This document shows positions 26,482 through 62,943 of a stretch of 64,000 nt of DNA, one piece after another. The notes beneath the pieces are model-generated. The model made no database searches. It was not told where the DNA came from and worked only from the letters and a program-made list of their open reading frames with translations. The DNA is taken from assembly GCF_014218335.1 (NCBI RefSeq), contig NZ_AP023367.1, forward strand, positions 5,332,001 to 5,396,000. The letters run 5' to 3'. Source of the stretch: Anaerocolumna cellulosilytica. GTDB taxonomy: Bacteria > Bacillota > Clostridia > Lachnospirales > Lachnospiraceae. Position 1 is the stretch's first letter. Each line of letters starts with the position of its first letter. Position numbers and translations under genes: made by a program.

Positions 26482-26546
26482 TAGCTCCTATCTGCGACCA
26501 CGAATCACATACGAATCAAGACAGTTGAATCTCTTTTATCCAACCT

Positions 26547-35335: not shown

Positions 35336-35505
35336 TCCAGATATAATTATTTTAATATAGTTATATAGTTATCTCTAACTTGATATAGTCTATAGTATAT
35401 TCTATAAAACTGAAACTTAATCATTCACTAGAAGTTAGCATAGCATGCGGAGAAAATTTTGTCAACTGCCTCCGACTAAAACCTTTATAAAGGTGCAGTT
35501 CTTCT

Positions 35506-44777: not shown

Positions 44778-44778
44778 G

Positions 44779-45000
44779 TTAAACTCCCATCTGTGTGCTT
44801 TAGCACACATTTAAATCATGATGTTGAAATTTATTGACTTTTCAACTTAAACTCCCGTCTGTGTGCTTTAGCACACATTTAAATCATGATGTTGAAATTT
44901 ATTGATTTTTTCAACTTAAACTCCCATCTGCATCCGTACTGCTGCACTTGAACACGTATTAATCAAGATCTTGAAAAACTTCTTGTTATTCAATTTAAAC
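44779..45000 (-). repeat. Three tandem type-A leader elements upstream of spmB
   Basis: Units 44779-44846, 44847-44915 and 44916 to about 45000 lie head to tail. Units 1 and 2 are nearly identical over 68 bases; unit 3 has diverged. On the minus strand each starts with GTTGAAA...TTTCAAC (hairpin 1), continues through an A/T-rich linker, then TGTGTGCTAAAGCACACA (hairpin 2), then GATGGGAGTTTAA. Only the last unit places its Shine-Dalgarno before a gene (spmB). Confidence 0.75.
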
Positions 45001-45005
45001 AAAAC

Positions 45006-45590
45006 CTATGTATTACGGCTTAGTTTTCTGGCTACTGTTGAAAATAAAACCCCTGCTATAGTTGAAATAGCAGTAGCCACTAGTGCCGCTCCCAAAATCT
45101 CTGTTGGACTGACAGAACCGTACTGGCTCCGATAGGCTATAATGTTAACCGGAATCAACTGCAAAGATGAGATATTAATAATTAAAAAGGTGCACATGTC
45201 ACAGCTTGCCGTGTCCTTCCCCTGATTGAGCTTTCGAAGTTCTCCCATAGCCTTTAATCCCATTGGTGTTGCCGCCCAGCCAAGTCCCAAGATATTGGCA
45301 ATCATGTTAGAAGCTATGTATTCATTTACTATATGCTCTTTTGGTATGTCAGGAAAGAGCAATCTTAATATAGGATTTAATGCCTTAGTAAAAGCGTCAG
45401 TTATACCTGCTGCCTTTGCAACCTGCATAATTCCCGTCCAAAGAGACATTACGCCGAGCATGGTAATACAAAGAGTAATTGCTTCTTTTGCAGAATTTAG
45501 TGATACGGTGCTAACTTCATCTATTCTTCCGTTTAACACACCTACGATTATTCCTATTACTATCATGAAACCCCACAAATAATTTAACAT
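45006..45590 (-). CDS. spmA: Spore maturation protein A
   Basis: 194-residue membrane protein of the same Gate fold as SpmB. MLNYLWGFMIVIGIIVGVLNG at the N-terminus and NILGLGWAATPMGLKAM are typical of SpmA. GGGAG, 5 bases before the ATG at 45590, comes from a type-A leader element. In Bacillus spmAB act in spore core dehydration. It is divergent from the AbrB-type gene. Confidence 0.95.
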   Translation of the reverse strand: MLNYLWGFMIVIGIIVGVLNGRIDEVSTVSLNSAKEAITLCITMLGVMSLWTGIMQVAKAAGITDAFTKALNPILRLLFPDIPKEHIVNEYIASNMIANILGLGWAATPMGLKAMGELRKLNQGKDTASCDMCTFLIINISSLQLIPVNIIAYRSQYGSVSPTEILGAALVATAISTIAGVLFSTVARKLSRNT

Positions 45591-45650
45591 GTACACTCCC
45601 ATCTGTGTGGTTTGGCAAAACACCAATGCACACTTTTAATTGTATGTTGA
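45591..45650 (-). repeat. Type-A leader element upstream of spmA
   Basis: On the minus strand GGTGTTTTGCCAAACCACACAGATGGGAGTGTAC runs into the ATG. The CACACAGATGGGAG signature is identical to other copies; hairpin 2 is replaced by a different stem (GGTGTTT with AAACC), and hairpin 1 keeps only its TTTCAAC arm. Confidence 0.55.
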
Positions 45651-45816
45651 AAGCACCTATAGCCCTTCTTTATAAATACTATATTCCCCTACTTGGAAAT
45701 CCATTACAGGAAAGTTTATCAGAGAAAACGACTACATTTTTTTTACCTTTTAATACCCTTTTTACAATATTTCCTATAAAATACTAAAATATTGCTAAAA
45801 TATAATAATTAATTTA

Positions 45817-45845
45817 TTGACTTTAGATTTATGTTATGCTATTTT
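45817..45845 (+). promoter_or_regulatory. Promoter of the AbrB-type gene
   Basis: TTGACT (45817-45822) and TATTTT (45840-45845) are 17 bases apart and leave a short leader of about 20 bases with AGGAGGT. Confidence 0.45.
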
Positions 45846-45871
45846 ATTAAGGTATTGTAGGAGGTACATAT

Positions 45872-46129
45872 ATGAAAAGCACAGGAATTGTAAGAAAATT
45901 GGATGAATTGGGAAGAATCACACTTCCTATTGAACTAAGAAGGACTTTAGGCGTAAGCGAAAGAGATCCTCTTGAAATTTTTGTTGATGAGGATAGAATC
46001 ATATTGAAAAAATATGAGCCTACCGATATTTTCAACGGTTCAAAAGATAATCTATATGATTATTGCGGTAAGAAGATTTCGAAAGAATCTATCTTAGAGC
46101 TTGCTAAATTAGCTGGAATTATTGAATAA
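45872..46129 (+). CDS. AbrB-family transition-state regulator
   Basis: 85-residue DNA-binding protein. The first 50 residues form the swapped-hairpin AbrB fold (STGIVRKLDELGRITLPIELRRTLG, shown here only in name; core GRITLPIELRR). The C-terminal half is a short dimerisation region. AbrB in Bacillus represses stationary-phase and sporulation genes, and abrB sits next to rsmI there as here. AGGAGGT precedes the ATG. It is a monocistronic gene with a strong terminator. Confidence 0.92.
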   Translation: MKSTGIVRKLDELGRITLPIELRRTLGVSERDPLEIFVDEDRIILKKYEPTDIFNGSKDNLYDYCGKKISKESILELAKLAGIIE

Positions 46130-46142
46130 GTAAAGCTCAAAG

Positions 46143-46203
46143 AAAGAGCCTGTCAAACATAGTTTATTGAAACAATAAACCATACAGTTTGAACAGGCTC
46201 TTT
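46143..46203. terminator. Nested-hairpin terminator between abrB-type gene and rsmI
   Basis: AAAGAGCCTGT (46143-46153) pairs with ACAGGCTCTTT (46193-46203), extended by CAAAC with GTTTG. The loop holds GTTTATTG with CAATAAAC. A long T-run follows on the plus strand. Confidence 0.85.
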
Positions 46204-46205
46204 TT

Positions 46206-47048
46206 TTATTCATTTAACAAATATTGATAAATATCTCTCTTTGACACACCCCGGTCTGTGGAAACTGCTTTCATAGCCGCCTTCTTATCCATTCCCTGTC
46301 TTATATACAGCTCCATATGCTCTTCTATAGACAAGCTTTCCCAGTTCTTTTGTTCTTCCTCTAAAAGCTCTAATATGTCTTTTCCTTCAATGGTAAGCAC
46401 ACACTCTCCCTTGACTTCATTGGCCTCATAATAGGCAATTGCTTCTGTAAAAGTTGTTGTAAATACCGTTTCGTGTTTCTTGGTAAGTTCCCGTATTACT
46501 GTAAGCTTTCTATTGCCTAACGCCTCATAAAGTTCCTTTAAAGTTTTTAACAAACGATGGGGTGCTTCATAAATAAGGATTGTCCTGGATTCTTTTTGAA
46601 GTTCCTTTAAGATGAGCCCTTTTTCTTTTTTATCTGTTGGTAAAAAGGCTTCAAAAGCGAATCTCCTGGTGGATAACCCAGATAGTGTCAAAGCAGTTAT
46701 ACAAGCCACAGGACCAGGCAAAGAGGTGACTTCAATACCTGCCTCATACGCCATTTTTACCAGTTCTTCCCCAGGATCTGAAATACCTGGTGTTCCTGCA
46801 TCTGTGATTAAAGCTATGGTAACCCCTTGCTTTAACTGCTCCACCAAATACCGGCCTTTTTCTATCTTATTAAACTCATGATAACTGGTCATAGGTGTTG
46901 TAATTTCAAAGTGATTTAGCAGCTTGATACTATGTCTAGTGTCCTCTGCCGCAATTAAGTCAACTTCCTTTAAGGTTCTTAGTACCCGAAAGGTAATATC
47001 CTCTAAGTTTCCAATGGGAGTGGCACATAAATACAATTTCCCTTCCAT
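46206..47048 (-). CDS. rsmI: 16S rRNA (cytidine-1402 2'-O)-methyltransferase
   Basis: 280-residue tetrapyrrole-methylase-fold enzyme that methylates the ribose of C1402 in 16S rRNA. LYLCATPIGNLEDITFRVL and ALITDAGTPGISDPGEE are RsmI signatures. The C-terminal helical extension (SIEEHMELYIRQGMDKKAAMK) is present. It is the last gene of the conserved leftward cluster that starts with the decarboxylase at 52536, and its Bacillus counterpart (yabC/yraL-like) is also beside abrB. Confidence 0.95.
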   Translation of the reverse strand: MEGKLYLCATPIGNLEDITFRVLRTLKEVDLIAAEDTRHSIKLLNHFEITTPMTSYHEFNKIEKGRYLVEQLKQGVTIALITDAGTPGISDPGEELVKMAYEAGIEVTSLPGPVACITALTLSGLSTRRFAFEAFLPTDKKEKGLILKELQKESRTILIYEAPHRLLKTLKELYEALGNRKLTVIRELTKKHETVFTTTFTEAIAYYEANEVKGECVLTIEGKDILELLEEEQKNWESLSIEEHMELYIRQGMDKKAAMKAVSTDRGVSKRDIYQYLLNE

Positions 47049-47083
47049 CTATAATCTCCAATCTTTTAAAAATCAACTGCTAA

Positions 47084-47827
47084 TTAATATCCATATATAT
47101 CATAGATCTCATCGGTATAAACATTGGGTTCTTTATATACCACCAGCGGTGCTTCCACTTTTATCATGGAACCTCCTCCTTTGACTGCTTCTATTAGAAC
47201 CATATTCGGTTCTTTATCAAAAAAGGGATGAACCATTTTCATCCTCTTTGGTTCCATGCGATACTTTGTAAGGACAGTAATAATCTCTACTAACCGAAAA
47301 GGACGGTGTACCAGATAAAACCTCCCGCCAGGCTTAAGTACTCTTGCTGCTTCTCGTACTACATCTTCTAGCGTACAATGAATCTCATGTCTGGCAATGG
47401 CTTTTGGAAGTTCTTTATTCGTAAGTCCATGGTTATTATTCATGTACGGTGGATTACTAGTAACTACATGGAAGGAGGCTGCACCAAATAAATTGGAAGC
47501 CTCCTTAATATCTCCAGTCACTATATTTATTTTTTCGTCCAGACCGTTAATCGCAACACTTCGTCTTGCCATATCCGCACTTTCTGCCTGGATTTCAAGG
47601 CCGGTAAAATGTTTCCCTTCTGTCTTTGCTTCTAACAGTAAAGGTATTATACCCGTTCCTGTGCCTAAATCCAGTACCTCTTCACCTTCTTTTACTTTAG
47701 CAAAACCGGAGAGTAGTACGGCATCCATACCAAAACAGAACTTTTTGCTGTTTTGTATTATCTTATATTGATTACGCTGGAGATCGTCAATGCGTTCTCC
47801 AGCTTTTAAATAGTCTTCTATCTTCAC
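47084..47827 (-). CDS. SAM-dependent methyltransferase, TrmN6/YabB-like
   Basis: 247-residue class I methyltransferase. DLGTGTGIIPLLLEAK is SAM motif I, and TSNPPYMNN is the NPPY catalytic motif of N6-adenine methyltransferases. The family includes E. coli TrmN6 (YfiC), which modifies A37 of tRNA-Val, and B. subtilis YabB in the same cluster. GGAG lies 5 bases before a GTG start at 47827. It is preceded by ricT and followed by rsmI. Confidence 0.88.
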   Translation of the reverse strand: MKIEDYLKAGERIDDLQRNQYKIIQNSKKFCFGMDAVLLSGFAKVKEGEEVLDLGTGTGIIPLLLEAKTEGKHFTGLEIQAESADMARRSVAINGLDEKINIVTGDIKEASNLFGAASFHVVTSNPPYMNNNHGLTNKELPKAIARHEIHCTLEDVVREAARVLKPGGRFYLVHRPFRLVEIITVLTKYRMEPKRMKMVHPFFDKEPNMVLIEAVKGGGSMIKVEAPLVVYKEPNVYTDEIYDIYGY

Positions 47828-47869
47828 ATTCGCTCCAATTGCAAATCAGGGTGCTCCCAATTATTCTGT

Positions 47870-48781
47870 TTATTCATCATCTAAGTGAGAGGACTTTCCC
47901 TCTTTCATTTCAAGCATTTCTAAGGCTCTTAATTCATCATCTATTGCAAGTTTTTCTTTTTTCTTCCTTGCTTTGAATTTTAAAGTAGATGCTTTATATT
48001 CTCTAACTTCTTTTTCATCATTTTCCAGTGTCACTATCACCTTAACTATCTGTTTTAAAACAATCACGCTTTGTACTTCACCTTTTAAGCCATCCGCAGT
48101 AGTAACCGTATCACCTACATTCGGAAGTTTGCTGTTCAGTTCTTCATATGCCTCTTCCTCATTTTTAAGGCAGCACATCAACCTTCCGCAAACTCCGGAT
48201 ATTTTGGTAGGATTTAAGGATAAGTTCTGTTCCTTTGCCATTTTGATAGATACAGGTGCAAACTCAGATAAATGAGTATGGCAGCATAGCGGCCTGCCAC
48301 AGATACCAATACCGCCAACTACCTTCGTTTCATCTCGGACACCGATTTGACGAAGTTCAATTCTGGTTTTAAATACAGATGCCAAATCCTTTACCAGTTC
48401 ACGAAAGTCAATTCTGCCATCAGCGGTGAAGTAAAACAATACTTTGTTATTATCAAAGGTATATTCTGAATCAATCAGCTTCATTTCAAGACCATGTTTT
48501 TTAATTTTTTCTAAACATATCTGAAAGGCTTCTTTTTCTTTTACTTTGTTTCTCGCTTCAACGTCATTATCCTCCGGCGTAGCAGACCTTATCACAGGCT
48601 TTAAAGGCTGAATAATTTTACTTTCTTCCACATCTCTAGGGCCGATTACCACCTTTCCGTACTCCACTCCCCTTGCAGTTTCCACGATAACATTGTCCCC
48701 CTGATTTATCTCAAAACCGGCAGGGTCAAAAAAATATATTTTTCCGGCGCTTCGGAATCTTACACCGATTACATTAATCAT
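47870..48781 (-). CDS. ricT: PSP1-domain protein RicT (YaaT)
   Basis: 303-residue protein with a PSP1 domain. Two cysteine clusters, GICGRPLCC and GVCGRLMCC, are those that bind iron-sulfur in the RicAFT (Y-complex), which in Bacillus affects RNase Y maturation of mRNAs and entry into sporulation and competence. The acidic/basic tail after residue 270 is variable. It begins one base after the holB stop and shares its ribosome site with the end of that gene. Confidence 0.94.
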   Translation of the reverse strand: MINVIGVRFRSAGKIYFFDPAGFEINQGDNVIVETARGVEYGKVVIGPRDVEESKIIQPLKPVIRSATPEDNDVEARNKVKEKEAFQICLEKIKKHGLEMKLIDSEYTFDNNKVLFYFTADGRIDFRELVKDLASVFKTRIELRQIGVRDETKVVGGIGICGRPLCCHTHLSEFAPVSIKMAKEQNLSLNPTKISGVCGRLMCCLKNEEEAYEELNSKLPNVGDTVTTADGLKGEVQSVIVLKQIVKVIVTLENDEKEVREYKASTLKFKARKKKEKLAIDDELRALEMLEMKEGKSSHLDDE

Positions 48782-48782
48782 A

Positions 48783-49775
48783 TCAGTTCTCCTTTATGGT
48801 AAGTAACATTAATTCAATTGCAATATCAAAATTAACGTTAGCATTTAATCGAATTTTGGCTTTTTCAACAGCCGCTATAATCTGTTCTATACCCTCATAG
48901 CTTTTAATGCTGGCTTGTTTTGATATGTCCATAGATTCACTTTTATATGTCAATAGATTAATATCCTTTGTTACCTTATACATCAGTATGTCCCGATACC
49001 AAAGAATAATTAAATCCAAATAATCGTCTATCCGTTCCTTCTGTTCTGAAATTCGCTTTAAACCGTCTATAATTTCATACAGCTCCATGTCATCAATATA
49101 TTTCAACAAATGAAGTACTTCTGTCTTCAACTCACCAAACTCCTCTGATGATGCATATTTAATAGCTTTTCCTACATTACCCTGAGAAAAAACTGCACTT
49201 AGCTCTGCCTGGTAATCAGGAATTTTATAATTTAACATTAGAAATTGTCTGATAGCCTCCTTATCCACTGCCTTTAATTTTAAGGTCACACACCGGGATA
49301 ATATGGTTGGCAAAAGAGCACTCAGATTATTCGTTAATAAAAGTATAATTCCATAAGAGGGCGGGGATTCGATTGTCTTTAATAAAGCATTTTGTGCCTG
49401 CTCTGTCAACCGTTCCGCCTCATCTATAATATAAATTTTATAAAGACTGCTATAGGGCTTTATTAAAATATCATTGTTTATCTGAATTCTAACATCATCA
49501 ACACCTATACTTGCCTTTTCGTGAGTAACCCTTTTAATATCCGGGTGATTTCCCGATTCCGCCTGTAAACAGGAACGGCATACACCGCAGTCCTCCCTGT
49601 TATCTAACCGGGATTCACATTGAAGCGCTTTTGTAAAGGCATCCGCCAGCATATTCTTTCCTGAACCGTCTTCTCCGGCTAAAATATATGCATGGGAAAC
49701 CTTATCCATTGCAATTGCAGTTTTTAAATGTTGTATGATTTGTTCATGCCCTACTACCTGATTAAATTTTTGCAA
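48783..49775 (-). CDS. holB: DNA polymerase III delta-prime subunit
   Basis: 330-residue clamp-loader subunit. AGEDGSGKNML is a P-loop, and four cysteines (in CESRLDNREDCGVCRSC) form the zinc module. YIIDEAERLTEQAQNALLK is the DEAD-like/Walker B region with the sensor around SRCVTLKLK. I prefer a TTG start at 49775 (LQKFNQVVGHEQ) with GAGGTG upstream, because the frame open to 49832 overlaps the previous gene and lacks a ribosome site. It overlaps no other gene; yaaR lies 20 bases upstream. Confidence 0.93.
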   Translation of the reverse strand: MQKFNQVVGHEQIIQHLKTAIAMDKVSHAYILAGEDGSGKNMLADAFTKALQCESRLDNREDCGVCRSCLQAESGNHPDIKRVTHEKASIGVDDVRIQINNDILIKPYSSLYKIYIIDEAERLTEQAQNALLKTIESPPSYGIILLLTNNLSALLPTILSRCVTLKLKAVDKEAIRQFLMLNYKIPDYQAELSAVFSQGNVGKAIKYASSEEFGELKTEVLHLLKYIDDMELYEIIDGLKRISEQKERIDDYLDLIILWYRDILMYKVTKDINLLTYKSESMDISKQASIKSYEGIEQIIAAVEKAKIRLNANVNFDIAIELMLLTIKEN

Positions 49776-49794
49776 ACACAGCACCTCGCTTCCA

Positions 49795-50235
49795 TTATGC
49801 AAAGATATCAAGCAGAATTCCTCTGATTTCATCTATCTTATTCAGTATTGCTATGGTATCCTTTTCTTCCTTTATCAACTCCATGGCTAATTCATCCAGA
49901 TTCTTATCGAGAAGTTTTATCATACCGTATACACGATGGCGTCCCCTTCGGTCAAGAAAGTTCTCACGGCTGAATTTGTGGGATCTGTTTACAATCTCAT
50001 TCATAAAATCTTTAATGAGCTGGCGGTACCTTCTCATATCCCGTACATCCATGTGTTTCCCTAGACGTTTTCCCTGTTGAACAATATCTTCCATTAAAAC
50101 GGTTAGTCTTGCTTGCAGCTCTTGCTCTTGTATATTGCTGATAAGGGTAAACTTAAAAGAGCCGTCCGCTTCCGGCAGAGGAGCTTTTTGTTCTACTTGA
50201 TTTACGGGTTGTAGTTGATTTACTTTAATGTCCAT
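49795..50235 (-). CDS. yaaR: YaaR-family protein (DUF327)
   Basis: 146-residue largely helical protein. It matches YaaR in size, in motifs such as [18 protein letters not shown] and [18 protein letters not shown], and in position before holB. Its function is unknown. A type-A leader element supplies GGGAG 6 bases before the ATG at 50235; the frame extends upstream to 50352 only through that element. Confidence 0.92.
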
Positions 50236-50312
50236 ACTAAACTCCCATCTGTGTGCTTTACACACGCATTGACTAGGATATGAGAATATATTACTCATCT
50301 TCTCACTGCCTG
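50236..50312 (-). repeat. Type-A leader element upstream of yaaR
   Basis: On the minus strand GAGAAGATGAG...TTCTCAT forms a hairpin-1 equivalent. GCGTGTGTAAAGCACACAGATGGGAGTTTAGT leads into the ATG. The ATGGGAGTTTAG inside is a four-codon start-stop unit (Met-Gly-Val-stop). Confidence 0.65.
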
Positions 50313-50465
50313 TAACTTCGCGTACGTATTCCCTTTTGTATTTCACTGGCAACCTTTAAAATCCCCCTTAAAAAATCTCACAAAAGCAGGCTGTCAGTAC
50401 TTTTTAAATCTTACAATACTGATACTTTATTATAACATAAAGGTCGTTTAATTTATAGGAAAATT

Positions 50466-51074
50466 TTAATGTATGTCAATATCTTCCTTAATTGTTTTTT
50501 GTATAACTGCTGCTACTTCACTTAGACATATTCTTATATCTTCATTATCATAGCCTTTCATGATTTTAAGGTGTTTTAACTTATCTTCGCTAAAGTCCTC
50601 TTCATCTGCTAAGTACCTTCTGCATAGCTCAGAATATTTGGGATTTACCTGGCTTTTCTCTCGAGCTAATGCCCGCTCAAGACGCAACCCGTCATTCACC
50701 TTAAGATAAATAGGTACAACCTTATCCGCCCCATAATAGTTCCTAATCTGCTCATAAGTAATGAGTGTACCTATCATAAGATAGCTGCCTGCTGACAAAT
50801 CAATCTGTCCATCATCCGCTGTAAAGTAATCCCAGATTCCATGCATGGTATGGTATGCCCTGTGTTCAATAATCTTATTATTTTCCTGAAACCAATGAAG
50901 CTTAGCCTTATCAACAAAATAATACGCTTCACCTTCTCTTTCTCCATCACGTATTGGGCGGGTTGTATACCCCACTACAGACTTTAAAGATAGACCGTGA
51001 TACTCTTTTAGTTTTTTGAAAAGAGTATCCTTCCCGGTGGCACTTTTCCCCATAATAACAAACAACTTGGACAT
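50466..51074 (-). CDS. Guanylate kinase-like protein
   Basis: 202-residue P-loop kinase. GKSATGKDT is the P-loop and GYTTRPIRDGEREGEAYYF the GMP-binding region of guanylate kinases. The lid and C-terminal parts are less typical, so it may be a divergent paralogue. It occupies the place of tmk in the Bacillus yaaO-tmk-yaaQ-yaaR-holB cluster. No substrate other than GMP can be named. Confidence 0.8.
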   Translation of the reverse strand: MSKLFVIMGKSATGKDTLFKKLKEYHGLSLKSVVGYTTRPIRDGEREGEAYYFVDKAKLHWFQENNKIIEHRAYHTMHGIWDYFTADDGQIDLSAGSYLMIGTLITYEQIRNYYGADKVVPIYLKVNDGLRLERALAREKSQVNPKYSELCRRYLADEEDFSEDKLKHLKIMKGYDNEDIRICLSEVAAVIQKTIKEDIDIH

Positions 51075-51108
51075 TTTGTATTTCCTTTCACGGCATTTTC
51101 TTGTATTC

Positions 51109-52536: not shown

Positions 52537-52575
52537 TTTGACAACATAAACTCCCATCTGTGTGCCTTAAGCACT
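52537..52575 (-). repeat. Type-A leader element upstream of the decarboxylase gene
   Basis: On the minus strand GAGTGCTTAAGGCACACAGATGGGAGTTTATG lies directly before the gene. Hairpin 2 is GTGC/GCAC; hairpin 1 is not evident. Here the ATG of ATGGGAG is in frame with the gene (MGVYVVKM), so the element may supply the N-terminus. Confidence 0.55.
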
Positions 52576-52697
52576 CCTTTATTGTACTCAAAACCCATAG
52601 TATATTCAATCTTTTTGTGTAAAATCACGCGATAATCCAACTTATAGAAATCTTTTATTTTTTTCTAAAAAGAGTTATACTGTATTTGAATTATTCA

Positions 52698-52853
52698 GTT
52701 GAAAGAAAATACAATAAGAAAGGGTAGCCACAGAAATTCTTTCAACTTTTAGGGTATATCTGAAGACGGTTCTTAAAAGAACATTTCATTGAATATTCAG
52801 ACACACCTTAGTGGCGGTATCGCAGAAAACTGCGGTATGAAATGGGTAAAAAA
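52698..52853 (+). repeat. Type-B structured leader element upstream of the flavoprotein gene
   Basis: Hairpin 1 is GTTGAAAGAA (52698-52707) with TTCTTTCAAC (52737-52746); its loop holds AAGGGTAGCCACA, similar to GAAGGATGCCACACA in the copy at 26425-26481. Hairpin 2 is CGCAG with CTGCG (52821-52834), inside GTGGCGGTATCGCAG...CTGCGGTATGAAATGGGT. The ATG of the gene follows 6 bases after GGGT. Everything from 52537 to 52853 is otherwise non-coding. Confidence 0.65.
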
Positions 52854-53477
52854 ATGAAAGTTTTACTTATTAACGGAAGTCCCAAAGTTCACGGTTGTAC
52901 ATATACTGCTTTGGAAGAAATAGCCGGAGAACTGCAAAAACAGGGAATTGACACAGAAATATTCCATGTAGGAAACAAACCCATCAGAGGCTGTATCGGC
53001 TGTGGCGTCTGTCGCAGTCTATCAGGCAAATGTACTTTTGATGATGATACAGTAAACGTTGCTTTACTTAAAGCAAAGGAAGCAGATGGCTTTATCTTTG
53101 GCTCCCCGGTGCATTATGCTGCTGCCTCAGGACAGATAACTTCCTTCTTAGACCGCTTTTTCTTTGCTGGAAGCGGATATCAGTATAAACCCGGAGCGGT
53201 CATTTTAAGCTGTCGAAGAGGAGGCTCCACCGCTGCCTTTGACCAGCTAAATAAATACCTTACAATATCCTCCATGCCGGTAGTCTCTTCTCAGTATTGG
53301 AACATGGTACATGGCAATACCCCCGAAGAAGTTAAGCAGGATTTAGAAGGCATGCAAACCATGCGTACTTTAGGTAAAAATATGGCGTGGCTATTAAAAT
53401 CCATTCAGGCTGGAAAAGAAGCCGGAATCAGCTTGCCGGAAGAAGAAGAAAGGCTGCGTACTAATTTTATACGTTAG
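52854..53477 (+). CDS. Flavodoxin-family NAD(P)H-dependent FMN reductase
   Basis: 207-residue flavoprotein. MKVLLINGSPKVHGCTYTAL gives the FMN-phosphate loop. GCIGCGVCRSLSGKC adds a cysteine cluster as in iron-sulfur flavoproteins of anaerobes; SPVHYAAASGQ is the second flavin contact. It probably reduces a quinone or other small acceptor. The start at 52854 is preferred over an ATG at 52842 inside the leader element. A palindromic terminator follows. Confidence 0.9.
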   Translation: MKVLLINGSPKVHGCTYTALEEIAGELQKQGIDTEIFHVGNKPIRGCIGCGVCRSLSGKCTFDDDTVNVALLKAKEADGFIFGSPVHYAAASGQITSFLDRFFFAGSGYQYKPGAVILSCRRGGSTAAFDQLNKYLTISSMPVVSSQYWNMVHGNTPEEVKQDLEGMQTMRTLGKNMAWLLKSIQAGKEAGISLPEEEERLRTNFIR

Positions 53478-53520
53478 GATTTATTTGAGAGACTCTATAT
53501 TAACTTATAAAGTTTGTTTT

Positions 53521-53560
53521 ACTATAAGAAAACCACCTTGATAGGTGGTTTTCTTATAGT
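53521..53560. terminator. Perfect palindromic terminator after the flavoprotein gene
   Basis: ACTATAAGAAAACCACCT and AGGTGGTTTTCTTATAGT are perfect inverted repeats of 18 bases around a TGAT loop. Confidence 0.85.
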
Positions 53561-53643
53561 GAAATTATTTGTATTTGAAACTATATTTTTAACCAAACTT
53601 CAAACTATCTTTGGCTAGAGCGTAACATAGACATAAAAAAGTA

Positions 53644-53684
53644 CAATACATAGGGCTCATCCTGAGATTAAATCCTATGTATCG
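53644..53684 (-). terminator. Terminator after the ABC-2 permease gene
   Basis: On the minus strand ATACATAGG and CCTATGTAT form the stem and TACTTTTTT follows. Confidence 0.75.
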
Positions 53685-53691
53685 TCGTTAT

Positions 53692-55268: not shown

Positions 55269-55486
55269 GTTTTTAACTCCTTTCGGTTCTCATGAACACA
55301 TTATGCTTCCGGAAAGAAGCTTTTGCATTATATTCTCCTTCAATAGAGCAATCTATAGTCTTACGGGAGAAATTTTGACCTGAAAACTGCATTTTTTACG
55401 CTGAATGGAGCAAAAAACAAGCTGAAACTTTCTCAACGCACTCAGCTCAATCCCTTTATATAGATGAAATCAACTTCTACTCTCAA

Positions 55487-56503: not shown

Positions 56504-56652
56504 CGTAATTCCTTCCACTTTACTGGTATACCATCACCATAAATTTTTATGCTCTTTATAATACCAATTTATAAGTTCATTCCCTATAATACAAATTGAT
56601 ATTATAAATTAATAGCATAATTTTATACTAGAAACAAGTCCTACGGAATACA

Positions 56653-57648
56653 TTAACTAAAATAAAGTATTTTTTCTTTTCCAAACCGTTTATCTATTTC
56701 ATGTAACAGCCATGCTTCCCCCTCTGACCTTAGATCTGCTCTGTAACAATATTTACCCATTCCTCTTCCCTTCATTAAGTCTTTATCATACAGCTCAATC
56801 GCTTCGGGAAAAGCTTCATTATTAATCTTACGGTGTACAAAACTGTAAGTCATAAAAATAATCTCAAGAAACATCTGCTTTTTCACCTTTTCAGAAAGTT
56901 GCTCTTGTAACAAATCTAAAAGACCAGTGTACAGCTCCTTCCAATTATCCAGTAATATTACGGGTGCAATTAGTATCCCTACTGTATAATCTGCTTCTGC
57001 CATCTTATTAATTGCTTCTATTCTTTTCATCAAAGAAGCGGTTCCTACTTCAATACTTTGAATAATATATTGAGGATTGACAGACATACGAAAGATAACC
57101 CTTCCTTTATGATCAAGAGGAAGAAGGGAGTCTATCATATTAAATTTAGTTGGAAAAGTAATTTTCCCTTTTTTACTCTTGAGAAAATTCTCTACAATCC
57201 ATGGCATATTGCCGGTTATGGTATTCTCAAGTACCAGGTCACTGTTACTGCCGATTTCAAAGGTCAAATCCCTGTCGCTTTTTTCTGAATATCGTATTAA
57301 TCGATCCATCATTTGTTCCCGGTTAACAAATATTCTTAAATATGAACATTTATTATAATTACATACTAGATAACAATAAAGACACATAGCCGTACAGCCG
57401 GAGGAGGTAAAGGGAACCAAATAGTCTGATACCTTATGATTTTCAGAATATTTATGGGTTTTTCTTGTACCTATAATTAATAATGATTTCATACCTGCGA
57501 ATTCTGAGTTCTCTTTTGTTCGTAATTCTTCTATATTATTATGACTTTCAATAGGGACCCAGGCTATATCACCGTACTTTTCTTTTAACTCTCTGCCAAG
57601 CTGATAATTTAAGGACTCGGGTTCATAATATATTTTTGAAGGTCGCAT
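56653..57648 (-). CDS. Spore-photoproduct-lyase-like radical SAM protein
   Basis: 331-residue radical SAM protein. SSGCTAMCLYCYL is the CxxxCxxC cluster motif and the whole length follows SplB (KIYYEPESLNYQLG at the start, GKYCYRADLRSE near the end). SplB repairs spore photoproduct, a UV thymine dimer in spores. But in SplB the hydrogen-donor Cys141 (B. subtilis numbering) lies in FEAACTSD; here the aligned segment reads FEIGSNSD, with Ser. It may be a divergent SPL or a paralogue with another substrate. AGGAAAGAGG precedes the ATG at 57648; the frame is open to 57747. Confidence 0.85.
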   Translation of the reverse strand: MRPSKIYYEPESLNYQLGRELKEKYGDIAWVPIESHNNIEELRTKENSEFAGMKSLLIIGTRKTHKYSENHKVSDYLVPFTSSGCTAMCLYCYLVCNYNKCSYLRIFVNREQMMDRLIRYSEKSDRDLTFEIGSNSDLVLENTITGNMPWIVENFLKSKKGKITFPTKFNMIDSLLPLDHKGRVIFRMSVNPQYIIQSIEVGTASLMKRIEAINKMAEADYTVGILIAPVILLDNWKELYTGLLDLLQEQLSEKVKKQMFLEIIFMTYSFVHRKINNEAFPEAIELYDKDLMKGRGMGKYCYRADLRSEGEAWLLHEIDKRFGKEKILYFS

Positions 57649-57748
57649 CCTCTTTCCTGCCTTTCTTAAAACATTTAATTTAAGAAATAGTATCTGCACA
57701 AACCTTCGTATTAGACATACAGTATATGGAACCTTGATAAAAGACATT

Positions 57749-58912
57749 CTATAATAGCTTTTTATAGGTCATGTCAATGAAAAATGCACCTAAAGGTGCT
57801 GTTAGTAAAATAGCCAAAACAGCAACCGTTAGTACAATTTTTCCGCAATTTAGTCCCATTGCTAATGGTATTGTTCCAATGGCTGCCTGCACTGTTGCCT
57901 TTGGAATATACGAAATCATACAAAACATTTTTTCCTTACGTTTTAGTTCCGTTTTAATAAAGCATACATATACTCCCACACTACGAAATACCAAGGCAAT
58001 TAGTATCATTGCAATGGCGCTAAAGCCTGCCTTCATGGCATAATTAATATCGATTGCCGTTCCCACCAAAATAAAAAGTAAAATCTCAGCTCCCGCCCAA
58101 AGACTTGAGAATTTAATAGAGAGCCTGCCTGCAATTTCTTTATTGTTTTGAAAAAGAGTTCCTCCCACAGTCATAATAGCAAGCAACGCTGAAAAAGGAA
58201 GAATACTCTTTTGTTCTGCCCATAATAAAATAAAAGACACACTCAGCATAGCAATAACCTTTAACGAATCCCTTAAGTGCATTATATAGAATACTTTATT
58301 TAATAAAATACCCGTAATAATTCCTATAAAAACCCCACTGATAACAGCTATTGGAATTCCTGCAAAGGATAGCAGGGACACTTGCTCTCCGGTCGCCAGT
58401 GAAGTGAAGGATGTAAAAAGAACAATAACAAATATATCATCAACCGAAGCTCCCGCCATTATAAGTTGAGGAACTCCTTTTTTAGTACCGTATCCCTCTT
58501 CTGTTAACTTTAACATCCTTGGCACAATAACAGCTGGGGAAACAGCAGCCATTACTGCACCCATTATGGCTGCTTCCAATACTGTAATATGCAGTAATTT
58601 GGGTGCCATAAGAATATAACCTGTAATTTCAAAACAAGCCGGTAAAAAACACATAAGCAAGGCCGGTCTGCCAACCTTTTTTAAGTCCTTAAGATTCATA
58701 GCCAATCCGGCTCTGGTTAGAATGATTACTAAAGCAATCTGCCTTAATTCCCCAGAGATAGACAATACGGTTTTATCAATTATATTTAAGACATGAGGAC
58801 CTAAAAGAACACCTGCAAATAGCATTCCCACTAACGCAGGAATCCTCAGTCTTTTTGCAGCCTCCGAAAAAATAAGCCCGAATAATAACATAATTCCTAA
58901 ACTAGTTAACAT
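57749..58912 (-). CDS. Cation/proton antiporter (CPA family), fluoride-riboswitch controlled
   Basis: 387-residue membrane protein with about 12 hydrophobic segments and the Na+/H+ exchanger fold. GMLFAGVLLGPHVL and IMAGASVDDIF, with the paired Asp of the ion site, identify the CPA antiporter superfamily. A fluoride riboswitch with an overlapping terminator lies just upstream. Antiporters of this superfamily recur downstream of fluoride riboswitches, alongside CrcB/Fluc and CLC-F, so a role in surviving fluoride is likely. Whether it moves fluoride itself or restores ion balance is unknown. The start at 58912 is chosen over a GTG at 58948. Confidence 0.88.
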   Translation of the reverse strand: MLTSLGIMLLFGLIFSEAAKRLRIPALVGMLFAGVLLGPHVLNIIDKTVLSISGELRQIALVIILTRAGLAMNLKDLKKVGRPALLMCFLPACFEITGYILMAPKLLHITVLEAAIMGAVMAAVSPAVIVPRMLKLTEEGYGTKKGVPQLIMAGASVDDIFVIVLFTSFTSLATGEQVSLLSFAGIPIAVISGVFIGIITGILLNKVFYIMHLRDSLKVIAMLSVSFILLWAEQKSILPFSALLAIMTVGGTLFQNNKEIAGRLSIKFSSLWAGAEILLFILVGTAIDINYAMKAGFSAIAMILIALVFRSVGVYVCFIKTELKRKEKMFCMISYIPKATVQAAIGTIPLAMGLNCGKIVLTVAVLAILLTAPLGAFFIDMTYKKLL

Positions 58913-58980
58913 AAAATAGTCATACCCTTTCCGATAGAATCTATCCACCTAAATTTTTATTTCTTACCAGGAATAAAAAC

Positions 58981-59025
58981 AAAAAAGCTGATACCTCCTG
59001 TGAATTATCACAGAAGTCATCAGCT
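58981..59025 (-). terminator. Riboswitch-controlled terminator
   Basis: On the minus strand AGCTGATGACTTCTGTGA (59025-59008) pairs with TCACAGGAGGTATCAGCT (59003-58986), and T-runs follow. The left arm overlaps the 3' part of the aptamer, so aptamer folding and terminator formation exclude each other. Confidence 0.85.
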
Positions 59026-59068
59026 AAAGAGCGGTTTTGGTTTCCCACGGGAGAACTTCATTCCCTAT
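59011..59068 (-). ncRNA. Fluoride riboswitch (crcB motif)
   Basis: On the minus strand GGGAATGAAGTTCTCCC forms the first stem-loop. After a short insert, AAACCGCTCTTTAGCTGATGACTTCTG follows. The AAACCGC and GCTGATGA blocks and the pseudoknot GAAGT/ACTTC match the crcB motif, seen for example in Thermotoga and Bacillus sequences. Fluoride binding should block the terminator at 58981-59025 and permit expression of the antiporter. Confidence 0.92.
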
Positions 59069-59077
59069 ATAATCTTT

Positions 59078-59106
59078 ACTATAACACAACTATGTGGAAA
59101 ATTCAA
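59078..59106 (-). promoter_or_regulatory. Promoter of the fluoride-riboswitch/antiporter unit
   Basis: On the minus strand TTGAAT (59106-59101) and TATAGT (59083-59078) are 17 bases apart. The predicted start lies just before the aptamer. Confidence 0.65.
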
Positions 59107-59236
59107 TCTCTAGAACCTTAAAGATTAATCGTAATTGAAGAAAAATACAAAAATAGGACCTATAGAATCTTTACATTGTAAAATATTCTGTGCTATTATA
59201 ATAATGTATGCTTAAAACACAAAGGAGAGTAGGAAG

Positions 59237-59869
59237 ATGAAACAAAAGAAAATATTACTAGCCATACTTGTTCTGGTAATGTTAACAGCTCTATCCGGTT
59301 GTAAAAAAAATGAATCCGCTTTTACCATCGGTACCTGGAACGAAAATGTATTTGAAAACACTTGGCTTAACATGAAATTTGAGATTCCAAAAGACTGGAG
59401 TCTCGCAACGGACGAAGAGATTGCACAATTAATGGATTTAGGAGCAGAAGCCATTGATTTAGAGGGTTCCGGCAGCGATTTATTAAAAAAAGTCGCAGAA
59501 ATTAAAAACGTCTATGGCTTTTTAGCATATTCACCAGATTCAACCTCTAATATTCAGTTAGTTTATGAAAATCTGGCATTAACTCTTGGCGGTACGAAAT
59601 ACACAGAAAATGATTATATTGAATCCGTAACTAATCTTATGCTGAACAATTCTGCTATTGAATATACGGTTGAGGATCAAAGTACTGTTCAAATTGCAGG
59701 CAGAGATTTTGAACTCCTTAGATTATCTATCTATGAAGGAGCATATTATCAAGATTTCTACTGTCATAAAGTTGATAATTACATGGTAAATATCGTTGCA
59801 AGCTATTTGGCAGATAATCAAGAAGATATGAAGGATATTCTATCCAAAATTACTGTTTTTGATAAATAG
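59237..59869 (+). CDS. Hypothetical lipoprotein
   Basis: 210 residues. The N-terminus is a lipoprotein signal with lipobox LSGC (Cys at about residue 22). After a short linker comes FENTWLNMKFEIPKDWSLATDEE, a pattern found in small secreted lipoproteins of Clostridia, and an alpha/beta region that recalls PsbP/Mog1-type folds. I cannot assign a function. A TATAAT sequence near 59200 suggests a short-leader promoter. A terminator follows. Confidence 0.75.
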   Translation: MKQKKILLAILVLVMLTALSGCKKNESAFTIGTWNENVFENTWLNMKFEIPKDWSLATDEEIAQLMDLGAEAIDLEGSGSDLLKKVAEIKNVYGFLAYSPDSTSNIQLVYENLALTLGGTKYTENDYIESVTNLMLNNSAIEYTVEDQSTVQIAGRDFELLRLSIYEGAYYQDFYCHKVDNYMVNIVASYLADNQEDMKDILSKITVFDK

Positions 59870-59896
59870 AAGGGGTTTTTGGTCTTTCCATAAAGT

Positions 59897-59932
59897 AAAG
59901 GGTTGCAGCAAGACAACTTGTGGCAACCCTTT
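59897..59932. terminator. Terminator between convergent lipoprotein and glutaredoxin-like genes
   Basis: AAAGGGTTGC (59897-59906) and GCAACCCTTT (59923-59932) form a ten-pair stem; T-run follows on the plus strand and A-run precedes it. Confidence 0.8.
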
Positions 59933-59935
59933 TTA

Positions 59936-60286
59936 TTAACATTTCCCTTTTCCATCCAGAGAGCAGGCATTCACTTCTAAGTTTGTTTCTGTTTGTTCCG
60001 GAGCACTTATTTCTTTACTTTTTCCACTTTCTGAATCCAGGAAATCGGATACCTGAAAGGTTTTTGTTCCATCCTCTAGAATAAAGAACGGAATCCCAAT
60101 TCTGCCTTCTTTTATTACCTCAGCAAACATGGCTTCATGGTCACGATATGCTAAAAACTCTTTTAATCGTGCTGTACTTTCTGTAATATTTCTATAATCT
60201 AATTCAATGTCTGGACGTTTGCTTAACTGTTCTTTCGCTTTCACACATCCCGGACAAATTTCAGCTCCATACATTAAAACTTTCAT
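59936..60286 (-). CDS. Glutaredoxin-related protein
   Basis: 116-residue thioredoxin-fold protein. CPGC near residue 11 is the redox site and GRIGIPFFILEDG holds the cis-Pro. The last 40 residues form a low-complexity Ser/Glu/Thr-rich tail with two more cysteines (NACSLDGKGKC), which might bind metal or form a second dithiol. It is a single gene between convergent terminator and tRNA-Lys. Confidence 0.85.
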   Translation of the reverse strand: MKVLMYGAEICPGCVKAKEQLSKRPDIELDYRNITESTARLKEFLAYRDHEAMFAEVIKEGRIGIPFFILEDGTKTFQVSDFLDSESGKSKEISAPEQTETNLEVNACSLDGKGKC

Positions 60287-60396
60287 TATGCAACCTCCTT
60301 TGTTGTTAATACTTATAACTTAACAGAAATTCTTAATTAATTCAAGAAGAGGATTTTAAAAGATATCTTTTCTACTAAATATATGACTAACAAAAA

Positions 60397-60438
60397 AGCC
60401 CTAACCCAACAGCTCATACGTCTGTCAAACTAGGACTT
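60397..60438 (-). terminator. Terminator after tRNA-Lys
   Basis: On the minus strand AAGTCCTAGTTTGACAG and CTGTTGGGTTAGGGCTT form a stem with a few G-T pairs, followed by TTTTTTG. Confidence 0.75.
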
Positions 60439-60443
60439 TACAA

Positions 60444-60516
60444 TGCGCCTCCAGGGGCTCGAACCCTGGACACCCTGATTAAGAGTCAGGTGCTCTACCA
60501 ACTGAGCTAGAAGCGC
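60444..60516 (-). tRNA. tRNA-Lys (anticodon CTT)
   Basis: A 73-base cloverleaf: acceptor GCGCTTC/GAGGCGC with discriminator A, D-arm with AGTTGGTA, anticodon stem CCTGA/TCAGG with loop CTCTTAA (anticodon CTT), and T-arm CAGGGTTCGAGCCCCTG. The CCA end is not encoded. A terminator follows. Confidence 0.97.
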
Positions 60517-60723
60517 TTAAATTTCGAACGCAAAATTGATTATATAGTATCATGAAACAAATTGCAAGTATTTTTTCATATTTTTTTTATTTTTCTTTAA
60601 AGATTTTATAATATTTGTTTAAAAAATGTAAAAAAGAATATAAAACCGTCATTAAAAGCTCGAAACACAAACAAATGTTCGAATTAATCATTTTGAACAC
60701 TCTTTTGCTTCCATTGTATATAC

Positions 60724-60785
60724 AACAGGTGTACTTTCAATCATCTTTTAAAAAATAACAAAATATCATGAAAGTAACACCTGCT
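60724..60785 (-). terminator. Probable terminator after trxA
   Basis: On the minus strand CAGCAGGTGTTACTTTCA and TGAAAGTACACCTGTTG pair with one bulge across a long A/T-rich loop. There is no clear T-run after the stem, so efficiency is uncertain. Confidence 0.5.
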
Positions 60786-60791
60786 GCCAAA

Positions 60792-61109
60792 TTATTTTAT
60801 TTGATTCAACTTATCAACAACCTGATTTTTGGAAATAGCACCAACAACCGTATCCACTACTTCCCCATTCTTAACAAACAAAAGCGTAGGAATAGACATT
60901 ACTCTATACTGGCTGCTAATTCCAGGTGCTTCATCAACATTTAATTTACCGATTTTTACAGTTCCTTCATATTCTCCTGCAAGTTCTTCAATAACAGGAG
61001 CCATCATTTTGCATGGTCCGCACCAATCTGCATAAAAATCAATTAAAACGGGGATATCTGATTTAAGTACCTCTGTTTCAAAATTCTCGTCTGTAAATTT
61101 AAAAGCCAT
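60792..61109 (-). CDS. trxA: Thioredoxin
   Basis: 105-residue thioredoxin. WCGPCK near residue 30 is the active dithiol; SIPTLLFVKNG has the cis-Pro. AAGGAGG precedes the ATG. It reduces cytoplasmic disulfides and could feed electrons to the CcdA-TlpA system encoded at 36459-37811. Monocistronic, or co-transcribed with the 49-codon ORF upstream. Confidence 0.96.
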   Translation of the reverse strand: MAFKFTDENFETEVLKSDIPVLIDFYADWCGPCKMMAPVIEELAGEYEGTVKIGKLNVDEAPGISSQYRVMSIPTLLFVKNGEVVDTVVGAISKNQVVDKLNQIK

Positions 61110-61201
61110 TCAAATTCCTCCTTAATTTATCACTTAGTATTTTTTATTAATCTATTCGTATATAGAATGCCTATTACCCAAAGGTTTATACCCCTAAAAA
61201 T

Positions 61202-61351
61202 TCAACTGTTATTTTTAGGTTTTTGATTTTTTCCTTTACCAACTATGGATTGTACTTCATCCCAGGAATTTTTTAATTGCAGAGCCTTTTTATTAAGTTC
61301 CATATTTCCGCCTAATGCCTTTGAAAGTTGATATTTTATTGACTTTTTCAT
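61202..61351 (-). CDS. Small basic protein of 49 residues (hypothetical)
   Basis: ATG at 61351 opens a 49-residue frame that ends at a TGA at 61202. It begins MKKSIKYQLSKALGGNMELN and ends in a Lys/Asn-rich tail. It is amphipathic in the middle (ALQLKNSWDEVQSIV) and strongly basic. The ribosome site is weak (GGG about 10 bases upstream). It lies between trmB and trxA in the same direction and fills most of a 354-base gap. Real by coding-like composition only; family unknown. Confidence 0.4.
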   Translation of the reverse strand: MKKSIKYQLSKALGGNMELNKKALQLKNSWDEVQSIVGKGKNQKPKNNS

Positions 61352-61463
61352 AGATTGATACCCAAAGATTATTATTACTATAGCTTATTAATATAAACCC
61401 TATATTATCCCATGGAACTTGCATCAAATATCAAAAATACTTTTCCTTGATTGCGCTATATTT

Positions 61464-62099
61464 TTATCTGAAGGCAACCAGACGATGTATCGGATTTCCC
61501 ATGGAAGAAAACTTTTCTTCATACTCTGTCATAACATTCCCTAAAGCGTATTCACTGTGATGCAAGTCATAAGTATGGTTCTTAAGTTTCCACCCCGCGA
61601 TTGCTACTTCTTCTAATGAAAAATCAAATAACAAACGATTATCGGTCTTAAATACAACTTCACCGTCTCTCCTTAACATCCTGTTATATCTTTCAAAAAA
61701 TTCTTTCGAGGTCAGTCTCCTTTTGGCATGACGATCCTTTGGCCAGGGATCCGAAAAGTTAAGATAAATTCTAGCTATTTCTTCTTCTGCGAAGATATCA
61801 TTGATATATTCTGCATCAAACCGTATAAAACACAAATTATCTATTTCTAATTCTTTCCTTTTATCTATGGCGCGGATTAGAACACTAGAATATTTTTCAA
61901 TTCCAATATAATTTATATTGGGATTTTCCTGTGCCAGCTGACAGATAAACTTTCCTTTTCCCATACCTATTTCTATATGAATGGGATTATTATTTCCAAA
62001 GAATAAATTCCACTTTCCTTTGTGGCTTTCAGGTTCCTGTACTACAAATTCATTTGCAGCAATTGCTTCTCTTGAACCTCTTACATTTCTTAACCTCAT
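61464..62099 (-). CDS. trmB: tRNA (guanine-N7-)-methyltransferase
   Basis: 211-residue methyltransferase that makes m7G46 in tRNA. EIGMGKGKFICQLA is SAM motif I, and YLNFSDPWPKDRHAKRRLT is the family signature with the catalytic Asp. Length and order match TrmB of Firmicutes. It is divergent from the V-ATPase operon. Confidence 0.96.
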   Translation of the reverse strand: MRLRNVRGSREAIAANEFVVQEPESHKGKWNLFFGNNNPIHIEIGMGKGKFICQLAQENPNINYIGIEKYSSVLIRAIDKRKELEIDNLCFIRFDAEYINDIFAEEEIARIYLNFSDPWPKDRHAKRRLTSKEFFERYNRMLRRDGEVVFKTDNRLLFDFSLEEVAIAGWKLKNHTYDLHHSEYALGNVMTEYEEKFSSMGNPIHRLVAFR

Positions 62100-62528
62100 A
62101 CTGTATGTCTCCTACTGTCACCCATGCCTTAGAACGTTTTTCCTAATTGGTTGACACTATATTTTATTGTTTTATTATAACACAGAAGCTTTTAAAGACA
62201 AGTGATTTTTCCTCTGTTAAAACAAGCTCTTGAAACCCTCTATTCCTCAACAAAAATAAATACCTAAGAAAATATTTATAGTTTCTTAATAATTATTAGG
62301 CTAAACACCTTAAATATTTTCAAAAAACCATCGAAATTTGTATATTTTCACGATGGAAATTTTAAAAGTTTGTAGTATGATATAGTCTGTGCAAGCGACC
62401 AATAAACTTACTTTTTATTCCCACTAAAAAAAAGGTCTAATGGAACTGCTTGTAATGTATCAGGTTATTTCTTTTACTTTTACATATAATAAAAGAATAA
62501 ACCAAGAAAAATACCAGGAGGATATAGG
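62100..62528 (+). promoter_or_regulatory. Regulatory region upstream of the V-ATPase operon
   Basis: A 429-base A/T-rich divergent gap. CCATCG and CGATGG (about 62333-62356) form an inverted repeat, and TATAGT at about 62380 could be a -10 box. The leader from there to 62528 is about 140 bases, with no known RNA motif. No ORF is evident. Confidence 0.35.
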
Positions 62529-62840
62529 ATGGAAAATGTGATTGACCTTTTACATGACATAGAGGAAAAAGCAAATCAGATTATCAAGCGTGCTAATGAA
62601 GAAAAAGTTAAGCTGCAAGAAACTTTAAAAAATGACCTAGAAAAGCTTGATAAAGAAATCACTGATGACACAAATGCTAAACTGCTTGTCCTAAAGACTC
62701 AGATGGATAAAGATTTATCTACCGAAAAGCAAGCTCTAATTGATGATTGCAACAAACAGCTGTCCGATATGGAGAAAAGATTCATACAGAACCATAATTC
62801 TCTTGTCAATGGTATAATTCAGCAAATAGTGAGTGAATAA
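62529..62840 (+). CDS. V-type ATPase subunit G/H-like stalk protein
   Basis: 103-residue, almost entirely helical, charged coiled-coil protein (KANQIIKRANEEKVKLQETL; EKLDKEITDDTNAKL). Such short proteins are the peripheral-stalk G/H (AhaH/NtpF-type) subunits at the head of archaeal-type ATPase operons. AGGAGG precedes the ATG. Subunit C follows. The complex pumps Na+ or H+ at the expense of ATP, or makes ATP. Confidence 0.8.
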   Translation: MENVIDLLHDIEEKANQIIKRANEEKVKLQETLKNDLEKLDKEITDDTNAKLLVLKTQMDKDLSTEKQALIDDCNKQLSDMEKRFIQNHNSLVNGIIQQIVSE

Positions 62841-62858
62841 CTACTTTCAGGAGGTTAT

Positions 62859-62943
62859 GTTGAAAAACAAAGCTTATTTTCAACATCCTGACTTGTACAT
62901 GCACAAGTACAAATAGTGCTAAAGCACCAGATGGGAGTTTCTT
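62859..62943 (+). repeat. Type-A leader element upstream of V-ATPase subunit C
   Basis: Hairpin 1 is GTTGAAAA (62859-62866) with TTTTCAAC (62877-62884). A second stem, ACTTGTAC with GCACAAGT, is extra. Hairpin 2 is GTGCTAAAGCAC, followed by CAGATGGGAGTTTCTT and the ATG. An AGGAGG at 62850 with an ATG/TTG opens a 19-codon frame (62857-62916) through the element. It fills the gap between two operon genes. Confidence 0.65.

Follow-up and report, generated by a model that had tools for sequence, protein, structure and literature searches.

The window analysed here, a stretch of 64,000 nucleotides (nt) from the 5.43 Mb, single-contig genome of Anaerocolumna cellulosilytica, carries several copies of a short repeat, type A, that stands directly before the start codons of genes. 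Type A is probably a dispersed, tandem-amplifying leader element that ends in its own Shine-Dalgarno (SD) sequence and is kept because the gene behind it needs that sequence. An initial annotation of the window had described a mobile or amplified RNA leader before five genes without shared function. All the sequences that it named are present, and the family is larger than it stated, with at least 133 places in this genome at E ≤ 0.01.

The Type-A Unit and Its Copies in the Window

In order, the unit consists of hairpin 1, the linker YTGATTTGTA, hairpin 2 and AGATGGGAG, with a length of about 60-100 nt. Read in gene sense, hairpin 1 of a full copy is [TTAG]GGTTGAAAA..TTTTCAAC and the linker between the hairpins is ATCYTGATTTGTAY; hairpin 2 is GTGTGC..GCACAC, closed by a short loop or by one or more inner hairpins, and is followed by AGATGGGAG, 5-6 nt and the ATG. 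With at most one mismatch, CAGATGGGAG occurs 11 times in the window (2.67 expected; reached by none of 100 shuffles), and exact tail 13-mers CANATGGGAGTNT occur 34 times in the genome, versus 2 for the reversed control.

The figure of 133 places was obtained with a sequence model without base pairs (R1), built from 18 hand-picked copies, which match it by construction. At E ≤ 1, 150 of 153 places were listed, 67 on the plus and 83 on the minus strand, and this total is perhaps a lower bound, because only the best 150 of 4262 first-look candidates were scored. Under stricter filters, a structured model (R2) finds 97 copies. Partial matches among the 150 listed places are strongly asymmetric, 29 covering the 3' part only and three the 5' part only.

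By reading, three copies stand in tandem at the spmB-like gene (44247-44777), all on the minus strand: a proximal one (44778-44850; R2 83.1 bits, E 5.6e-16), a middle one (44847-44915, genome 5376847-5376915; R1 62.2 bits) and a distal one with a longer hairpin 2 (44915-44998; R2 69.2 bits). On the same strand, the spmA-like gene (45006-45590) is preceded by a degenerate copy (45590-45675; R2 17.2 bits, E 0.15; R1 E 0.007), with no insert in nine relatives; the DUF327 (yaaR-like) gene by a copy whose hairpin 1 is TGAG..CTCA (50236-50303; R2 39.1 bits), with a remnant of the old SD upstream and no insert in 12 relatives; and the Orn/Lys/Arg decarboxylase gene by a 3' part (52545-52614; R2 23.6 bits, E 0.006). 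Hairpin 1, by reading, is decayed at the spmA-like gene and not evident before the decarboxylase gene. The V-ATPase subunit C gene (62944-63975) follows a plus-strand copy (62855-62943; R2 56.1 bits) with an older SD, CAGGAGG, directly 5' of it. Listing window matches up to E 1, R2 also gives a minus-strand copy absent from the initial annotation, just upstream of a leader of a second family, type D (26479-26548; 33 bits, E 5e-5); its match at 57025-57136 (E 0.91) is probably fortuitous. The initial annotation is the source of the names spmA, spmB and yaaR, for which Pfam gives 'Gate' and DUF327.

In agreement with the earlier statement that no named family fits, type A has no Rfam match at gathering scores within the window, and seven type-A loci compared with Rfam at E ≤ 5 gave nothing relevant. 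Within the open-licence literature of PubMed Central, to which this statement is confined, no description of an element like type A was found.

Placement Before Start Codons

Of the 150 listed R1 places, 147 were read in their sequence context, and 113 are terminal, meaning that no further copy follows within 40 nt. The ATG of a frame of at least 60 amino acids (aa) lies within 25 nt of 88 of these 113 terminal copies, compared with 8.4% of random positions in the same stretches, and a TTG or GTG start follows five more, so that an amplified family placed at start codons rather than randomly, as had been anticipated from the window, is indeed observed. The distance from GGAG to ATG is 5 or 6 nt in 72 of 83 terminal copies, and the spacing first noted in the window extends to most of the family, the decarboxylase gene departing from it, with 14 nt between GGGAG and the start ATG used in relatives. 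It is because the copies adjoin ATG frames with this spacing that GGGAG is placed as an SD sequence. In other genomes, an open reading frame (ORF) with ATG follows 37 of 41 type-A copies (one per locus, hand-chosen).

Traces of an older ribosome site were sought 5' of the 63 first copies, out of 113, that have a clear 5' end. An SD-like 4-mer is found 2-16 nt upstream in 25 of the 63, versus 3-16 (mean 6.8) in 13 windows further up, and the stricter AGGAG or GGAGG in nine, versus 0-3. Two further candidate features were discarded. The Met-Gly-Val-stop unit pointed out in the initial annotation looks incidental, since an ATG is present in the tail of 57 of 113 terminal copies and the complete unit in only 15; a promoter inside type A was dropped by reading, as the spacing changes with hairpin length.

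Orthologous Starts and Distribution Across Genomes

Orthologues of the five window genes were compared in 43 gene-genome pairs of the same genus (spmB 8, spmA 9, yaaR 12, decarboxylase 13 and ntpC, 1), and type A precedes the start in none; the four R1 matches at E ≤ 10 in these stretches are all more than 800 nt from the starts or not upstream. At the yaaR start, gtgaggcagtgattctt-ATG in a relative corresponds to ttacaggcagtgag..element..ATG in the own genome, and at ntpC the two sequences are taggaggctttc-ATG and ttcaggaggtta-element-ATG. By eye, the old SD or upstream sequence survives 5' of the own insert at the yaaR-like, ntpC and spmA-like genes. Another 24 element-bearing genes led to 64 orthologous starts located in genomes G303, G305 and G307, and the first 60 of them, belonging to 21 genes, gave no R1 match at E ≤ 10. 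A loose pattern did match at 17 of the 60, but given the absence of R1 matches these are regarded as false positives in A+T-rich sequence. The proposal that a built-in ribosome site replaces the normal one is therefore borne out as regards an added site where relatives have only an ordinary one; its use by the ribosome would follow from its position.

With the same strict filters, R2 found 0-66 copies in 14 other Anaerocolumna genomes (one genome with none; 66 in G307, 64 in G308 and 19 in G306; three, one and four in the low-copy genomes G301, G302 and G303), and in 26 genomes of other genera it found none. Among 299 genomes of the family, three contain the exact 15-mer tail: the own genome, with 23 occurrences, and two others with a single one each. 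A marginal R1 match outside the genus (G323, E 0.0044) was not repeated by R2. The named scan yielded 35 stretches, 23 of them in Anaerocolumna records or KNHs205 and 12 outside; judged by eye, several of the latter show one or two copies ahead of an ATG in other members of the Lachnospiraceae, such as Eisenbergiella porci, and some, the Nocardia stretch among them, appear to be chance matches. For 10 of 12 genes compared in the close genomes G308, G309 and G311, inspection by eye shows the unit before the corresponding start in every one of the three; of the remaining two genes, one has a degenerate unit in one genome and the other a clear unit in only one. Copy number varies within this trio (one versus two or more at a response-regulator gene; two, two and one at an apgM-like gene), the tail persists, and hairpin 1 is frequently disrupted. 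Thus, among the genomes examined, the family appears to be inherited within a clade and unshared between clades.

Structure, Covariation and a Possible Regulatory Role

In alignments fitted to R2, which leans the counts toward the model, each of the 16 stem pairs shows two-sided changes among 103 distinct own copies, with a covariation score of 0.258 versus 0.112 for shuffled alignments (reached by 0 of 500 shuffles; slid controls ≤0.060), and 48 distinct copies from other genomes show them at 14 of 16 pairs (0.294 versus 0.110; 0 of 500). The compensating changes expected in the initial annotation are thus present in both sets. When the arms of hairpin 2 were anchored by their flanks only, in 104 distinct rows of 122 and with misanchored rows left in, 72.1% paired, versus 63.6% when whole arms were shuffled (at most 68.4% among 1000 shuffles). 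Variants of this hairpin include GTGTGC/GCACAC, GCGACC/GGTCGC (subfamily B), GTGTAC/GTACAC and GTGACC/GGTCAC, and a copy in a Clostridium metagenome-assembled genome has CCGAAGCG/CGCTTCGG as hairpin 1. Among the 30 strongest column pairs, those outside the stems look like a subfamily contrast. Pairing of the linker with the tail (CATC with GATG) was rejected by reading, being lost in subfamily B and in ACGGGAG copies. The fold of the leader reaches -16.0 kcal/mol, versus -10.3 for shuffles (60 copies).

These observations could be explained if type A were a genuine regulatory leader, whose folded RNA would be recognised by a protein, a small RNA or a ligand to set the translation of many genes, and which spread because the regulation is useful. 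The strong covariation and the conserved unpaired linker TGATTT speak for it, as do the copies that stand, singly or in pairs, ahead of start codons in certain other Lachnospiraceae, the retention at orthologous starts in G308, G309 and G311, and the occurrence of type D at five of the 60 starts orthologous to those of type-A genes. However, no sequestration of the SD is seen in the predicted folds: its accessibility is 0.373, versus 0.408 in shuffled leaders, and is above the shuffled value in 25 of 60. Strong upkeep of stem pairs at the RNA level should yield more G-U pairs; stem cells in the own genome hold 52 G-U and 57 A-C, without wobble preference, and those of other genomes show a mild G-U excess (28 versus 19). 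Hairpin 1, moreover, decays in several orthologues.

The downstream genes likewise argue against a regulatory leader. A Pfam sample of 40 of the 102 downstream proteins (36 with a match), together with the five window proteins, includes FliS, Ada/AlkA, LacI, Cpn10, dihydrofolate reductase, HemN-type, porphobilinogen deaminase and class-I tRNA synthetase; YgbB, type III pantothenate kinase, SpoIIIAA, CheB, CheW, MraY-type and RelA/SpoT; and V-ATPase C and D subunits, DUF327 and others, with no functional theme. The suggestion of a common switch for a regulon thus finds no support in this sample, nor in an SD that is not specially occluded, and we regard the regulatory explanation as a whole as rather unlikely. 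From an SD as open as in shuffled leaders, the near equality of G-U and A-C, and the excess of 3'-only over 5'-only matches, we think instead that the need of translation for the SD preserves that end, and that the rest of the unit is maintained loosely.

Copying, Arrays and the Search for a Mover

Type-A copies from different loci reach 92% identity, and 136 pairs at least 80% identical were found, to which 46 of 62 copies contribute, these 62 being the ones compared out of 106. Because identity drops to a background of about 30% beyond about 12 nt upstream and about 9 nt downstream of the modelled unit, discrete units would have been copied during the spread. Within tandem arrays the junction is ..GGGAGTTTA-GGTTGAA.., one element being placed directly after another's SD. 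One array, L121 (own genome 3296890-3297538), has nine type-A units at a 70-nt period, six of them identical, and is possibly a copy-number variable leader.

A mover was looked for among known types. One candidate explanation makes type A a non-autonomous element of the IS200/IS605 or REP kind, which a Y1 (HUH) transposase would mobilise through its hairpins in single-stranded form. Two hairpins, a single orientation toward the gene, the absence of terminal inverted repeats (by reading) and the absence of a target duplication would fit, and such end anatomy is described for the IS200/IS605 family in PMC6006769. Nevertheless, the four Y1 (PF01797) transposase genes of the own genome have ends unlike type A, and no PF01797 match was found in G307, G308 or G306, the first two rich in copies; a Y1 transposase was accordingly rejected as mover, and this explanation is very improbable. 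The own genes themselves (L031-L034) fall into two IS200-type families, each represented twice, and their hairpin ends are of the CCACC..GGTGG type.

A terminal-repeat transposon, such as a miniature inverted-repeat transposable element (MITE) of the DDE type, is likewise unsupported. The ends GGTTGAA and GGGAGTTTA are not, by reading, inverted copies of each other, and the longest word shared by the flanks averages 3.55, versus 3.57 for shuffled pairings (n=53), so that no target duplication is seen. Type A was not found in viral contigs searched with the exact pattern, nor in phages and plasmids searched by blastn with one 228-nt array. As for a chance combination of A+T-rich stems with strong ribosome-binding sites of the ordinary kind, each common singly, it is already refuted by the tail counts (34 versus 2), by covariation that 0 of 500 shuffles reach, and by unit-length repeats at unrelated loci, and its probability is negligible.

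Type D and Other Leader Families

Type D has the anatomy AGGTTGAAAGAAAATAT..AAGAAAGGATGCCACA..ATTCTTTCAACC..TTTATTTGTGGCAGTA-hairpin-TATGCAATGGG-ATG, and its RNA is pseudoknot-like, ending ATGCAATGGG before the start codon. The window holds a minus-strand copy that ends at an ATG (26369-26449; R3 90.6 bits, E 7.5e-16), itself in the training set of the type-D model R3, and a plus-strand copy before an ORF of about 207 aa (52726-52856; 39.5 bits). It is found at a start codon in 31 of 33 rows (32 distinct loci, L311 being the window copy), a placement partly built in, as R3 was trained on eight copies ending at ATG. In 28 of the 33 rows, a complement to a unit-internal 7-mer lies within 70 nt upstream, which is compatible with a pseudoknot. 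The helices covary by score (0.279 versus 0.103); five of 16 pairs change on both sides, a count reached by 99 of 500 shuffles. R3 gives 85 matches in the own genome and, among the best 105 candidates per genome, 0-105 in 14 other genomes of the genus, whereas the 26 genomes from other genera gave no match. The window scan against Rfam yielded no hit for type D.

Besides the five orthologous starts mentioned above, type D precedes spmB in G305. At orthologous starts of type-A genes it is perhaps two to three times as frequent as overall, a figure estimated without a test from 16 matches in 0.6 Mb. At several loci of relatives (L237, L238, L246, L279, L288, L191), type D stands where the own genome has type A, the genes being YgbB (ispF-like), an epimerase (galE-like), a histidine phosphatase, pantothenate kinase and the spmB-like gene.

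Hybrids of both families are seen by eye (L099 1155, L016 1415, L160 2093), with a type-A-like hairpin 1 and linker CACACCCTGATTTA joined to a type-D-like tail, GGCAGT-hairpin-ATGCAATGGGAG. A further unit, type C, has a type-A-like hairpin 1, then TTTCTATTTAGGCCTGTTCAA..TTGAATAGGTCGTCAAAAATTGAAAGGCACGGGTGTTA, then ATG, with type A sometimes after its 3' part; it was noted at L099, L097, L161, L085 and L094 (own genome 2206356, 2033780, 5010291, 1049414 and 1854535). Two leaders of the window belong to Rfam families, a T-box leader (35097-35336, minus strand) and a fluoride riboswitch (59004-59074, minus strand).

A Leader Probably Kept for Its Shine-Dalgarno Sequence

The following course of events is proposed. 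A type-A copy would arrive in the interval that separates a gene's native SD from its start codon. With the GGGAG at the 3' end of the copy now 5-6 nt from the ATG, this GGGAG would become the SD used by the ribosome, leaving the old one about 60 nt or more upstream. Since the gene would now depend on the element, the SD-bearing 3' end would come under selection and hairpin 1 would be freer to shrink or decay, and the addition of further copies at one place would give head-to-tail arrays. That the SD of the element is the one in use, and that dependence on it explains retention, is inferred, as is the spread by copying of discrete units.

Several facts weigh against this account. By the script's rule, 20 of 113 terminal copies have no start, and 38 of 63 first copies have no SD-like 4-mer just upstream. 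GGAG is kept in 27 of 34 internal tandem copies and in 97 of 110 terminal ones, which is nearly equal, so that better upkeep of the SD in terminal copies was not shown. Free decay after insertion does not predict a linker TGATTT as conserved as the SD, although the linker perhaps marks what the copying machinery reads. The proteins of relatives are 57-88% identical to the own ones, starts differ and insertion points are not fixed to the base; all comparisons of presence and absence are between species, and in the close trio most sites are common, which indicates slow turnover. Finally, the word 'mobile', used in the initial annotation, fits the dispersed, discrete units but rests on pattern, because no autonomous partner, matching transposase ends, terminal inverted repeat or target duplication was found.

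A more specific form of the proposal, put forward tentatively, is that of a genomic parasite that holds the SD hostage: insertion would be silent, since a working SD is brought along, and loss would silence the gene. At least two families of one genus, type A with two hairpins and type D with a likely pseudoknot, would then have spread by an RNA- or recombination-based route without a known transposase. This dispersal mechanism is the interesting part of the case, and type D, of similar abundance, poses the same question again.

If the proposal is right, about 100 gene starts in one genome use a ribosome site borne by a repeat, among them those of dihydrofolate reductase, Cpn10 (GroES-type), porphobilinogen deaminase, a class-I tRNA synthetase and V-ATPase subunits, and repeats would have a route to become indispensable without coding for anything. 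The copies also constitute many natural replicates for the study of how structured leaders affect initiation.

Comparison with Known Systems

Like translational riboswitches and other cis-regulatory leaders of Rfam, type A is a structured leader beside an SD, with covarying stems; it differs from them in having no Rfam match, in standing before more than 100 unrelated genes and in giving no sign of SD sequestration. BOX, RUP and ERIC are small MITE-like repeats, from which type A differs in the lack of target duplication and of inverted ends (by reading) and in its fixed distance of 5-6 nt to the start codon. For RUP and ERIC, PMC10969869 indicates the shared traits of small size, many copies and narrow host range.

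REP/BIME and IS200/IS605-type palindromic elements are likewise short dispersed hairpin units that form clusters and lack classical terminal repeats, to judge from PMC6006769, which places REP largely between genes, whereas type A lies in one orientation directly before start codons; moreover, no PF01797 match accompanies it in two high-copy genomes. The Rickettsia palindromic elements lie inside reading frames, many of them inserted in frame, and, according to PMC10969869, can be likened to type A in being palindromic and tolerated because the host gene keeps working. Unlike them, type A adds a ribosome site before the frame, and most of its copies end just before the start codon.

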